Source of the DNA: Verrucomicrobiaceae bacterium
Lineage (GTDB): Bacteria; Verrucomicrobiota; Verrucomicrobiia; Verrucomicrobiales; Verrucomicrobiaceae
DNA length: 64,000 nt
NCBI GenBank assembly: GCA_027486585.1
Contig: JAIXOU010000027.1
Span: forward strand, 62,001 to 126,000
Direction: 5' to 3'
Numbering within the stretch: position 1 is the first letter of the stretch; each line of letters begins with the position of its first letter. The notes below the pieces were generated by a model, which saw nothing but the letters and a program-made list of their open reading frames with translations, searched no databases and was not told the origin of the DNA. This document shows, one piece after another, positions 40,871-45,680 of the stretch. The translations under genes were made by a program, and so were the position numbers.

Positions 40871-43657
40871 TTACCAACTCACACGGAAGCCTGCGAGCAG
40901 GGTTTGGCTTTCGTAATTGCGGCGGAACAGCTGTGCCTGATAGGCGAGGTAGATGGCGTAACGATTCCAGGCGACATTAATACCTGCAGTGACGAGCGCG
41001 CTGTCGCGTCCGATAGATGGGCCATATACGGTAAAGGGACTGCCAGCGCCATTAGCGAAACTTGAACTCATAGCGAGCGCGTTATCCAGGAACTCATGTT
41101 GCCATTGCAGACTAAGGGATGGGGTGACTAGGGCATCGCCACAGCGGGTCGTGTAAGCGGCACGCAGACCAATGCGTGATCGTAACGAACTCTGATTCTG
41201 TGAGTCGAAGCTCAGTGGTTGCAGTGAATCAGATTCATTAAAGCCGTCGATGCTGACGGCGCTATAAAGCAGAGAAGCCATGGGGGTGAGGGTCCATTGA
41301 TCCATGTAGATGTCATAACCCGTACCGAGGTAGGCATCGAAACTCGAACTGCTGGTGCTGCCTTTAGCGATACCTCCCAGTGCGCCACGTTCAGTGTCGT
41401 AGTTGTTGTAGCTGCCGCCTACCATGAACTCGGTGTAAAAGGAACCTCTTTGGTACATAGCATAGACGGCTGAGCGCACGCCATCAGCCGAGAGAGAACC
41501 ACCGCCCGTAAGATCGCTGCTGGATCGAGCATAACCTAGAGTAACACCAAGCACCCAATGCTCATCCAAACGCACATCGACACCGATGGTGCTACCGACC
41601 GACTGCACATCAAAACCATTGGCATTCGAGGTATCTCCGAGGCTGGCGTATTGGCCTGTCGCATTGGCAAAGAAGCCATAGCGGCTGTCATCAGGTGAGA
41701 TCGTTGGAGAAATCGAACCGCCAAGCACAACATCTTTACCGCTGGTGTAAGCAGGGGCTTGGCTCCGCCCCACATTGCGGATGGAAGCCAGACGCTGCTG
41801 CACGCTGAGCACTTCAGTATCGAGCTGGGCAAAGGAGATGCTGTAGATGGCCGTCAGCTCTTCTGGAGCGATTTTGTCGAGCTGATGAGGCACGGCGTTG
41901 ATGTTAAGATTGTTGAGGTAATTCAGCACCGCCGTCTGCCGCACATCAGTCAAAGCAGAATCCAACGCGCCAGCCGTGGCTGTTTGATTCGGCGTGAGCG
42001 GGATGGGGCTCAGCGCATTTTGAAAACTGTTCTGCACGGCATTCACCACAACAGTCGTCGGTGAGTAAACGACGACAAGTTTCACTAAAGTGCCAGGGCC
42101 GGCGAAGGGATTGATTACCGTGGCGAAAGGGGCTGTGACACTGCCTGCATGAATGATGTCAAAGCTGCTACCCAAGGCAGGGCGTGCTCCACCAGGTGTC
42201 GTTATTTGCAGGGCACCGCCCAGATTAGCCGCTCCGCTGATGATCAACTGATCATGGTTAGCTGGAGTCACAAGCTGCGTGACGAGCAGACCGCTGCCGC
42301 CCTGCGTATAGCTACCGACAATGTTAAGTGCACCCACCGCATTGCCTGGATTGACGGCTCCATTGTTGACCACTGATCCGGTGATGCTGCCAGTGCCATT
42401 GAGATTGCCACCGAGCGCGACATTGACCAAGGGTGAAACGAGGGATCCGGTCATGAAGAGCGTGCCGCTGTTGATGTTCACTGGACCTGTAACGTTGGCA
42501 ATGCCCGATAGTCCGAGCGTACCCGCACCAGTCTTGGTCAGGCTACTTGTGCTAGCGACGCTCCCACTGAAGAGTGCTCCGGCAGTGTTACTCACATTCA
42601 CTGTGGGTATCGCGCCAGTGAAAGCCAAATTGCTGGTGACCGTGAACAAGCCAGCACCGCTATTAACACTGATAGCAGCATTGCCACCGATGCTCAGTGT
42701 ATTGGCTCCGGCAATGGTCACTGCTGCCGTGTCATTGATCGTGAGAGTGTTAATCGCGAAATTGGCACCGAGGGTGGTGCTTTGATTGGCCGCGCCCGTG
42801 GCGGAAAAGGAAATGTCATCCGCCACCGAGGGAATGAGGCCCGCCGCACTACCCACCGAGTCGCTGGCCCAATTTCCAACCGAGGTCCATTGCCCATTCA
42901 TCGTCCCCAGCCAATGTGTCGGCCCGATCAGAAGTGGCACGATGTTGATGGCGTTATTATCCATCGTCACCGCGCCATTCAAGGCCAGAGCACGTCCATC
43001 CATACTGGCTCCTGTATTCAGCGTGATGGAAGTAGCCGCCATGATCGTGCCCGAAAAAGCCGAGTTCACCCCGATAGTAGCAGAACTGCCGACCTGCCAG
43101 AAGATGTTCCCCGGTTGTGCACCATTGATCAGATTGATCATGCTGCCGACCGAAGTGATAAGGGTGGATCCAGCCTGAAAAATCCAGACGGCATTCGGGT
43201 TGCCCAGCGCATCCAGCGTCAAGGTGCCCTTGATCCCAAAGGACGAAGTGTCCGTGTGTACGCCGGGCGCAAGGGTGAGTCCGCCGAGATCAAAGATTGG
43301 GGCATAGCTGATCGTCGGCAGTCGGCCTGCAGCGTCATTGTAAGCAATGAGTAGATCGCTTTTCCCGACTAGGGTGACGCCATCTCCCGCATGATTAGTC
43401 CCCGTCTGGATTACTGTGCCAAAGCCAGTGATAGTTGAGGTCGGTAAGCTTCCCACATCTCCGATGATGGTGGTCGCTCCTGTGTTTGTAATCCCCGAGC
43501 CTGCTAGAACGCCGAAATCAAAAGCCTGCCCCAGATTGATGGGAGCCTCCGTGCCCGCCAATTCGAAGTCGGTGAGTGCTGTGACAAAAAGGATGCAGCA
43601 CCAGCAGGTTTTCCGCGTGATTTTCGACAATGATTTCAGGAAAAGGGAGCTATTCAT
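40871..43657 (-). CDS. Autotransporter with ice-binding-type (DUF3494) passenger domain
   Basis: 928 residues. An export segment is at the N-terminus (residues 1-35). Then a DUF3494 ice-binding-like domain runs to about 245, with AVWIFQAGSTL, GNIFWQVGSSATIG and FSGTIMAATSITLNTGA motifs. A passenger of autotransporter-type repeats (SLTKTGAGTLGLSG and similar) follows. The C-terminal ~270 residues form an autotransporter beta-barrel that ends in Trp. The protein would display its passenger on the cell surface. Binding of ice or another crystalline or polymeric surface is a family-based inference. It stands alone with a 185-bp gap after it. Confidence 0.85.
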   Translation of the reverse strand: MNSSLFLKSLSKITRKTCWCCILFVTALTDFELAGTEAPINLGQAFDFGVLAGSGITNTGATTIIGDVGSLPTSTITGFGTVIQTGTNHAGDGVTLVGKSDLLIAYNDAAGRLPTISYAPIFDLGGLTLAPGVHTDTSSFGIKGTLTLDALGNPNAVWIFQAGSTLITSVGSMINLINGAQPGNIFWQVGSSATIGVNSAFSGTIMAATSITLNTGASMDGRALALNGAVTMDNNAINIVPLLIGPTHWLGTMNGQWTSVGNWASDSVGSAAGLIPSVADDISFSATGAANQSTTLGANFAINTLTINDTAAVTIAGANTLSIGGNAAISVNSGAGLFTVTSNLAFTGAIPTVNVSNTAGALFSGSVASTSSLTKTGAGTLGLSGIANVTGPVNINSGTLFMTGSLVSPLVNVALGGNLNGTGSITGSVVNNGAVNPGNAVGALNIVGSYTQGGSGLLVTQLVTPANHDQLIISGAANLGGALQITTPGGARPALGSSFDIIHAGSVTAPFATVINPFAGPGTLVKLVVVYSPTTVVVNAVQNSFQNALSPIPLTPNQTATAGALDSALTDVRQTAVLNYLNNLNINAVPHQLDKIAPEELTAIYSISFAQLDTEVLSVQQRLASIRNVGRSQAPAYTSGKDVVLGGSISPTISPDDSRYGFFANATGQYASLGDTSNANGFDVQSVGSTIGVDVRLDEHWVLGVTLGYARSSSDLTGGGSLSADGVRSAVYAMYQRGSFYTEFMVGGSYNNYDTERGALGGIAKGSTSSSSFDAYLGTGYDIYMDQWTLTPMASLLYSAVSIDGFNESDSLQPLSFDSQNQSSLRSRIGLRAAYTTRCGDALVTPSLSLQWQHEFLDNALAMSSSFANGAGSPFTVYGPSIGRDSALVTAGINVAWNRYAIYLAYQAQLFRRNYESQTLLAGFRVSW

Positions 43658-44230: not shown

Positions 44231-44248
44231 TTGTGAAATTTTTCACAA
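44231..44248. promoter_or_regulatory. Rex-type operator upstream of nuoF
   Basis: An 18-bp palindrome, TTGTGAAATTTTTCACAA, with perfect 8-bp arms and a 2-bp centre. It agrees at every fixed position with the Rex consensus TTGTGAA-N4-TTCACAA. It is 40 bp upstream of the nuoF ATG. Rex binds NAD+ or NADH and represses redox genes when NADH is low. The core also satisfies TGTGA-N6-TCACA, so a CRP/FNR-type regulator is the alternative. Confidence 0.7.
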
Positions 44249-44288
44249 AGCCACTTGCCCGTCTCTATCGTAGTTGGATACTAAACCC

Positions 44289-45680
44289 ATGGCAGTCCAG
44301 TACCTCCCCGGCAAAGAGCCCCATTCCCGCGAAAAGCGTCTGATCTTCAAAAACATCGACCGTGTCGGTTACGACCCGTCCATCGAATGCTACCTGAAGG
44401 ACGGTGGTTATGAGCAGATGAAGGCTGCACTGAAGATGGAGAAAAGTGCCATCATCAACGAAGTCAAAGCTAGCGGCCTGCGTGGTCGTGGCGGCGCAGG
44501 CTTCCCTACTGGCGTGAAGTGGGGTTTCATCCCGCCTACCAATACCAAGCCTGTCTACCTGATCTGCAATGCCGATGAATCGGAGCCAGGCACTTTCAAA
44601 GATCGCTACATCCTGCATCAGGATCCACATCAGCTCATTGAAGGCATGGCCATCGCCTGCTTTGCGGTAAATGCCAAGCTAGCGTACATTTACATTCGCG
44701 AGGAATTCCCGCACGCGGCGAAGATCGTCGAAAAAGCCATCGCCGAAGCCAAGGCCAACGGCTTCCTCGGCAAAAACATCCTCGGAACTGGCTTTGATTG
44801 TGAGATCTACGTGCATCGCGGTGCAGGTGCCTACATTTGCGGAGAAGAGACAGGCTTGATTGAATCACTGGAAGGCAAGCGCCCTTACCCGCGCATCAAG
44901 CCTCCTTACTTCCCTGCTGCCCTCGGCCTCTACATGAGTCCGACTATCGTTAACAATGTTGAGTCTCTTTGCCATGTGAAGCACATCATCCAGATGAGTG
45001 GTGCGGAATATGCCAAACTCGGCACGCCAAACAACACAGGCACACGCATCCTTTGCGTGAGTGGAGACGTCGTCAATCCAGGTTACTACGAGGTTGAAGT
45101 GGGCAAAGTCACCATGGGTGAAGTCATCAACGTTCTTTGTGGCGGACTCAAACCAGGGCGCAAACTGAAGGCAATCATTCCTGGCGGTAGTTCATCCAAA
45201 GTGTTACGTGCAGACGAAACCTATAAACTCAAAGATGGCCGTGAGATCGGCATCATGGACATCCCCATGGACTTTGACACCATGGCGCAATGCGGAACCA
45301 TGGCCGGCTCGGGAGGCGTCATCATTATGGATGACAGTCGCAGCATGACTTGGGTCATCAATAACCTGAACAATTTCTACGCCCACGAAAGCTGTGGTCA
45401 GTGCACCCCTTGCCGCGAAGGCAGCCTGTGGATGAAAAAGATCAGCGACCGTATCGTCGGCGGCACGGCCAGCCCAGATGACGTGGATACCCTGGAAACT
45501 GTGGCGAATCAGATCGAAGGCAAAACCATCTGCGCCTTTGGCGAAGCCGCTTCCTGGCCGACTCAAAGCTTCATCAAGAAGTTCCGCGATGAACTCAAAG
45601 GGGACTGCAAAACTGAACTGACCGGAAAAATTGTCTCCGACGAAGGACTCGTTGCCTCCGCTAAGCTCGTGAAAGCTTGA
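44289..45680 (+). CDS. nuoF: NADH-quinone oxidoreductase subunit F-like protein
   Basis: 463 residues from the ATG at 44289; an in-frame TTG at 44274 would add five. The FMN site GRGGAGFPTG, the NADH-site GAGAYICGEETG, the 4Fe-4S motif CGQCTPCREG and the last cysteine in TICAFGEA are all intact. It oxidises NADH and passes electrons to an iron-sulfur chain in complex I or in related bifurcating hydrogenases or formate dehydrogenases. No nuoE, nuoG or other subunit is within the window; both neighbours are small lipoproteins. The Rex-type palindrome upstream suggests control by NADH/NAD+. A possible GATACT -10 at 44277 would make the mRNA nearly leaderless. Confidence 0.92.
   Translation: MAVQYLPGKEPHSREKRLIFKNIDRVGYDPSIECYLKDGGYEQMKAALKMEKSAIINEVKASGLRGRGGAGFPTGVKWGFIPPTNTKPVYLICNADESEPGTFKDRYILHQDPHQLIEGMAIACFAVNAKLAYIYIREEFPHAAKIVEKAIAEAKANGFLGKNILGTGFDCEIYVHRGAGAYICGEETGLIESLEGKRPYPRIKPPYFPAALGLYMSPTIVNNVESLCHVKHIIQMSGAEYAKLGTPNNTGTRILCVSGDVVNPGYYEVEVGKVTMGEVINVLCGGLKPGRKLKAIIPGGSSSKVLRADETYKLKDGREIGIMDIPMDFDTMAQCGTMAGSGGVIIMDDSRSMTWVINNLNNFYAHESCGQCTPCREGSLWMKKISDRIVGGTASPDDVDTLETVANQIEGKTICAFGEAASWPTQSFIKKFRDELKGDCKTELTGKIVSDEGLVASAKLVKA

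Follow-up and report, generated by a model that had tools for sequence, protein, structure and literature searches.

The 18-bp palindrome that precedes nuoF in the window (the whole stretch of 64,000 nucleotides of Verrucomicrobiaceae DNA analyzed here) is most probably an operator of the NADH-responsive regulator Rex, and nuoF itself belongs to a complex I that is complete but whose genes are dispersed, a reading to which we assign a probability of roughly 0.88 from the sequences compared. The exact box occurs in eight copies in this genome, all of them just before respiratory genes, and the genome holds one rex gene; on these grounds, we place nuoF, together with the other scattered complex I genes, in a Rex regulon. 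The box is common to much of the respiratory chain, and since the same switch stands before nearly every complex I fragment, the pieces can probably be switched on together despite the lack of a single operon.

The palindrome and nuoF in the window

The predicted operator, TTGTGAAATTTTTCACAA (positions 44,231 to 44,248, forward strand), is an exact match to the search pattern and fits both the Staphylococcus aureus Rex consensus, TTGTGAAWWWWTTCACAA, and the Streptomyces avermitilis motif, TTGTGAANNNNTTCACAA, as these are quoted in the consulted part of PMC5355995. In the whole 64-kb window, it is the sole site with fewer than three mismatches; sites with up to three mismatches number three, against a chance mean of 3.47, and show no excess, and the exact matches expected from base composition are about 0.0002 per window and 0.018 per genome. 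Six nucleotides 3' of the operator lies a -35-like hexamer, TTGCCC (44,255 to 44,260, forward strand), whose core is common at nuo boxes, and after a 16-nt spacer a -10-like hexamer, GATACT (44,277 to 44,282, forward strand), which ends 6 nt 5' of the ATG of nuoF (44,289 to 45,680, forward strand). This ATG is 58 nt from the start of the palindrome and 40 nt from its end; a TTG at 44,274 is a possible, less likely, start.

The product of 463 aa is the 51-kDa NADH/FMN/4Fe-4S subunit of complex I according to both Pfam (PF01512, PF10589, and SLBB_2) and NCBIfam, with the 51K FMN/NADH domain, the SLBB domain, and the C-terminal 4Fe-4S domain in place. Two of three NuoF equivalog cut-offs are exceeded (TIGR01959, 564.2 bits vs 558.65; PRK13596, 498.1 vs 389), and the score for the third lies below its cut-off (PRK11278, 393.7 vs 749). 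The closest named relatives, 99% identical, come from one Verrucomicrobiaceae MAG and one Prosthecobacter MAG. The next gene 3' of nuoF is not a nuo gene, and tblastn with the genome's own NuoB to NuoN, Rex, Atp, and Act proteins found no other nuo, rex, atp, or act gene in the window. The earlier note, made from the window alone, had claimed a match to the Rex consensus at the palindrome, the NADH-binding subunit of complex I-like enzymes as the product of the next gene, and no other nuo genes nearby, and all of this holds. A hairpin 3' of nuoF folds weakly better than its shuffles (z -1.84), and the terminator scan made no call there. Just upstream of the nuoF region, on the reverse strand (40,871 to 43,657), lies a gene whose product combines an ice-binding-like domain (PF11999) with an autotransporter beta-domain in one fusion.

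Boxes across the genome

The genome of the window comprises 6.5 Mb in 147 contigs and is 97% complete; the reversed pattern, used as a control, gives no exact match in it against the eight of the true pattern. All eight are 18-bp sites of the TTGTGAANNNNTTCACAA type in promoter regions, with a gap of 19 to 66 nt between box and start codon at 8/8 sites, ATG starts being taken for nuoG (61 nt) and nuoF (40 nt). They precede nuoBC (C46), nuoDE (C74), nuoF (C51, the contig of the window), nuoG (C104), nuoHIJKLMN (C99), a run of genes starting with atpB (C83), and two clusters of act type, one encoding a multiheme cytochrome with a TAT/Fe-S fusion and NrfD (C1) and the other continuing with COX1 and other oxidase-like genes (C7). 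From their gene arrangement, we take these act-type loci to be of the alternative-complex-III type. The families of NuoB to NuoE, NuoG to NuoN, AtpB, AtpA, the act-type proteins, and COX1 were verified by Pfam or NCBIfam, with NuoI recognized only by its 4Fe-4S type and its expected place and one act-type protein of 433 aa matching no family in these two collections. Sites with one mismatch, on C80 and on C130 5' of pgk-tpi, are within the range of chance and were excluded from the regulon.

Complex I subunits elsewhere in the genome are represented by the Pfam families of A, B, C, D, E, G, H, J, K, and the antiporter type of L, M, and N, and the genes occupy six separate places (A, BC, DE, F, G, and H-N). 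Further Rex boxes, and the nuoE and nuoG genes that the earlier note considered worth locating, are thus present, nuoDE and nuoG on other contigs behind the same box. Its suggestion that nuoF is used with partners encoded elsewhere stands, as nuoBC, nuoDE, nuoG, and nuoH-N (all boxed) and nuoA (unboxed) lie on other contigs; its suggestion of a diaphorase working alone finds no support.

The unboxed piece, nuoA, is alone on C126. No exact box was found in the 400-500 nt upstream of nuoA in 13/13 genomes, where the nearest candidates carry at least two mismatches in all 13 and at least four in 11, so that not all of complex I is under the box. By eye, several orthologues of the unboxed nuoA locus L235 have a TTGACG-N17 promoter instead, in which the -10 resembles TAGAAT or TAATAC.

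Other genes behind the box in related genomes include a polyprenyl synthetase, directly 3' of an exact box in 5/11 genomes (L072, L074, L082, L208, and L218) and perhaps serving the quinone side chain, an NDH-2-like gene in G178, and a COX1-like oxidase gene in G280, all of which fit an NADH signal. Seven of the surveyed boxes were assigned to genes by hand: with Pfam support for two of the polyprenyl synthetases (L072 and L082) and the NDH-2-like gene (L073), and by eye or tblastn for L074, the COX1-like gene (L189), and a nuoM (L200); that of L080, an RRM protein 176 nt away, is uncertain. G273 has two atp loci (L207 and L210), each with its own exact box. Two further proteins of the window's genome are worth recording: a fusion of an NDH-2-type NADH dehydrogenase with a cyclic-nucleotide-binding domain and two CBS stretches (L257, C142, about 126.8 kb), possibly a ligand-gated NADH dehydrogenase, and a protein of 554 aa that resembles a NuoE-F fusion and has both SLBB and 4Fe-4S domains (L017, C131, about 23 kb), beside which lies a small gene pair resembling, by eye, a nucleotidyltransferase/HEPN pair.

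Rex and its co-occurrence with the box

The single rex gene (L015) encodes both PF06971 and the Rossmann domain PF02629, scores above the cut-offs of five NCBIfam Rex equivalogs, and its product aligns with solved Rex structures over nearly the full length (best E 1.1e-40); the lack of a rex gene, which the earlier note had named as fatal to its reading, is therefore not the case. Autoregulation of rex is common in Rex regulons and not required; here, no exact box stands before the gene. Across 30 genomes of the order, that of the window included, rex and 6-11 boxes occur in the same 9/30 genomes and neither occurs in the other 21 (Fisher p 7e-8, ignoring kinship); 20 of these 21 negatives are small genomes of one genus, so that the contrast reflects few independent events. 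The nine rex genomes carry 72 boxes, one of which is counted twice. In the 49 genomes behind the NuoF loci described below, a set that partly overlaps that of the order, boxes are present in 49/49 and rex in 46/49, the three others being perhaps incomplete assemblies, and the reversed pattern gives no match in 48 and one match in the remaining genome.

Outside the order, the link between rex and box is loose, rex being common and the exact box rare. In the sample of the phylum, the exact box occurs in 19/240 genomes and a PF06971 match in 142/240, and 127 of these 142 are without an exact box, so that rex does not imply this motif beyond the order. The ten genomes outside the order that have a box have a single one, six of them together with rex and four without a rex match. 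In two genomes from outside the class (G056 and G162), the sole exact box precedes the rex match itself by no more than 50 nt.

Promoter anatomy

A survey of 86 distinct boxes from 11 genomes (51 at nuo, 14 at atp, and 21 at other genes) revealed a core promoter, formed by a TTGCC-like hexamer, 15-18 nt, and nATAnT or TAnnnT, 3' of 36/51 nuo boxes; shuffled sequences averaged 0.13 and never exceeded 2, and the opposite flank of the box yielded 0. At nuo, the box sits 6-7 nt upstream of the -35-like element, with TTG 7 nt from the box in 32/36 cores and this distance combined with a 16-nt spacer in 26/36, and the layout can be described as a cassette of box, 6-7 nt, TTGCC, 16 nt, and nATAnT, often with a start codon close behind. 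The strict form of the test found this core at 0/14 atp boxes and 0/21 other boxes; by eye, the atp boxes show TTGC at the same place and a TAAAAA-like -10 (uncounted). At the act loci, the box seems by eye to follow a -10-like element resembling TATTCT and to precede the start codon, seemingly a place fit for blocking.

Boxed nuoF loci have the core in 31/35 cases, all 31 with the 16-nt spacer, and in 28/31 an in-frame ATG follows 5-7 nt 3' of the -10-like hexamer. Since this hexamer ends 6 nt before the ATG in the window, the nuoF mRNA is predicted to be leaderless. A generic sigma-70 scan did not call TTGCCC/GATACT at nuoF; the only promoter that it proposed, with TTCACA (the right half of the box) as -35 and TATCGT as -10, was not adopted, since by eye the other boxes do not share it, whereas they do share TTGCC-N16-nATAnT. 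Within one genome, the 40 nt 3' of the box resemble each other more closely from one nuo gene to another (0.420, n=106) than they do across genomes (0.374, n=969), and 0/300 label shuffles gave a within-genome value as high; as the base composition of the genomes is uncontrolled in this comparison, it is only suggestive of a promoter cassette copied within the genome.

Stages of dispersal

Eighty NuoF loci were collected by protein and not by box, and are thus free of bias towards the box. Of these, 41 are separated from nuoE, 37 are joined to it, and two have no upstream sequence; in the 250 nt upstream, 35/41 separated nuoF carry an exact box, as do 0/37 joined ones (Fisher p 3e-16, ignoring kinship). 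The six separated nuoF without a box (L108, L114-L117, and L121) keep the core promoter with the 16-nt spacer in 6/6 cases. Decay of their box after a loss of rex was considered and finds no support, given the presence of rex in 5/6 of these genomes and of 5-9 other boxes in 6/6. On a quick tree of the 80 NuoF sequences, the joined or separated state changes four times, three of the changes being forced by well-supported branches, with their direction uninferred.

Related genomes display intermediate arrangements. Where nuoF is joined to its neighbors in nuoDEFGH.., there are 3-4 boxes per genome (seven genomes, G281 and G283-G288; the layout of all four boxes was read in G284), and genomes with a separated nuoF have 5-12. 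G178, G237, and G217 have one box each at nuoBC, nuoDEF, and nuoGH..; in G066, nuoG and nuoH are near neighbors with one ORF between them and a box at each; and in a Phragmitibacter locus (L162), boxes lie 5' of nuoD, nuoE, and nuoG, which are still neighbors with other ORFs in between. The layout BC, DE, F, G, H.. is common to the window's genome and G187, of the same genus; in G234, G273, and G282, nuoE is alone as well; and in G280, 12 boxes mark nuoD, nuoF, nuoG, nuoBC, nuoH-L, nuoMN, atpB-F, atpA, atpD, actAB, actC, and the COX1-like gene, and nuoE has a relic box with five mismatches at the right place. In G187, nuoG is separated from nuoH by 139 kb within a single contig, and nuoD from nuoB by 251 kb within a different one, distances that indicate dispersal and not a broken assembly. 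The reading of layouts left out 2/6 boxes in G217, 1/9 in G187, and all those in G190 and G199; G276 looks like the same genome as G217, and L173, which repeats the nuoF region of G066 at an overlapping contig end, was excluded, leaving G066 with 7 boxes, not 8.

These arrangements may reflect a stepwise and repeated dissolution of the complex I operon in the Verrucomicrobiales, extended in one lineage to atp and the alternative-complex-III-type genes, in which most pieces would have been refounded with their own copy of a Rex-operator cassette, perhaps copied within the genome, and a sensor protein would have replaced the operon as the coordinator; the box would have been gained before or at the split, as the Phragmitibacter locus may illustrate. 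For this history as a whole, we consider the chances to be about even.

Proposed mechanism and alternative explanations

Under the Rex reading, the protein would bind its operators as long as the level of NADH is low compared with that of NAD+ and, once bound, would hold down the nuo, atp, and alternative-complex-III-type promoters; accumulating NADH would bind Rex, which would then release the operators, and the nuoBC, nuoDE, nuoF, nuoG, nuoH-N, atpB, and complex-III loci would rise together. For the scattered genes, the shared operator would take the place of the single operon promoter of other bacteria. Only 6 nt separate the nuoF operator from the -35-like element 3' of it, and Rex bound there would be expected to crowd RNA polymerase.

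The weakness of the -35 itself (TTGCC) would also suit a Rex that activates nuo and atp from just upstream of the -35 and represses act alone, and the near-fixed spacing of 7 nt between box and TTG adds to the appeal of this idea; nevertheless, copied or shared ancestral promoters could equally give a fixed spacing, parts of one respiratory chain would be driven in opposite directions, and nuo and atp of S. avermitilis are repressed by Rex in the part of PMC5355995 consulted, so that activation seems unlikely. The same palindrome might instead be read by an activator of the CRP/FNR family, as it lies upstream of the -35 in nuo promoters and has the core TGTGA-N6-TCACA, which also fits the CRP core and is common to both families; the AA/TT beyond this core are fixed by the search pattern and are no evidence either way. 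This binder is rejected, and its probability is very low, because no such protein was found in the 97% complete genome: the two matches to PF13545 are both GntR proteins that carry an FCD or UTRA domain, and none of the three cNMP-binding proteins with PF00027 has an HTH match in Pfam. Moreover, the predicted center near -50 is presumably not a usual CRP position, and the boxes track rex across the order. The Rex reading of the earlier note is thus supported by the presence of the regulator in the genome and by a search in which its competitor was not found.

The function of the nuoF product could likewise be seen differently, as a soluble NADH diaphorase acting alone or with non-nuo partners such as a hydrogenase or formate dehydrogenase, since nuoF is separated from every other nuo gene and a second 51K-type protein, the NuoE-F fusion on C131, exists in the genome. 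Nonetheless, NuoF outscores this other 51K protein (170.5 vs 143.3 bits), its orthologues lie within nuoDEFG.. in relatives, and the equivalog scores together with the presence of subunits A-E and G-N on other contigs led us to reject this role, which we regard as the least probable of the alternatives. Membership of nuoF in the dispersed, Rex-controlled complex I remains the preferred interpretation.

Novelty and comparison with known systems

Operons are often explained as a device for the co-expression of the subunits of one complex. In this group of bacteria, a metabolite sensor seems to coordinate large membrane complexes whose genes lie at scattered loci, and living intermediates persist from the joined state (3-4 boxes) to the fragmented one (up to 12 boxes), so that the benefit of the operon, and its replacement by a regulon, become testable in related bacteria. 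The group also gains a predicted NADH-controlled respiratory regulon. A literature search that did not extend to Ravcheev and others, 2012, found nothing on Rex in Verrucomicrobia or on Rex with alternative complex III. As far as this search goes, the predicted regulon in this phylum, the putative alternative-complex-III-type and polyprenyl synthetase targets, and the apparent piecewise breakup of an operon with a Rex box at most pieces are new.

The operator and its logic are already known, since Rex of S. avermitilis binds a motif of the TTGTGAANNNNTTCACAA type at nuo, atp, and ndh2, and NADH weakens this binding (PMC5355995, consulted in part). To the extent that this source describes them, both systems share the operator motif and the nuo and atp targets, whereas nuoA1-N1 and atpIBEFHAGDC are single operons in S. 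avermitilis and nuo is broken up here (in G280, also atp and the complex-III-type genes). In the same account, Rex also targets rex-hem, and its sites at nuo and atp extend over the -35; here, rex has no exact box before it, the nuo box lies upstream of the -35, alternative-complex-III-type genes and a polyprenyl synthetase are boxed, and nuoA is not. The S. aureus consensus is matched by TTGTGAAATTTTTCACAA at 18/18 positions, and Rex of that species, according to the portion of PMC5355995 consulted, controls anaerobic NAD+ regeneration, fermentation, and nitrate respiration, whereas the boxes found here mark the aerobic chain. Finally, Escherichia coli K-12, compared over nuoA to nuoG, has the same subunits, but its nuo genes are adjacent and C and D are fused, whereas here the genes lie in six places, with nuoC and nuoD on different contigs.
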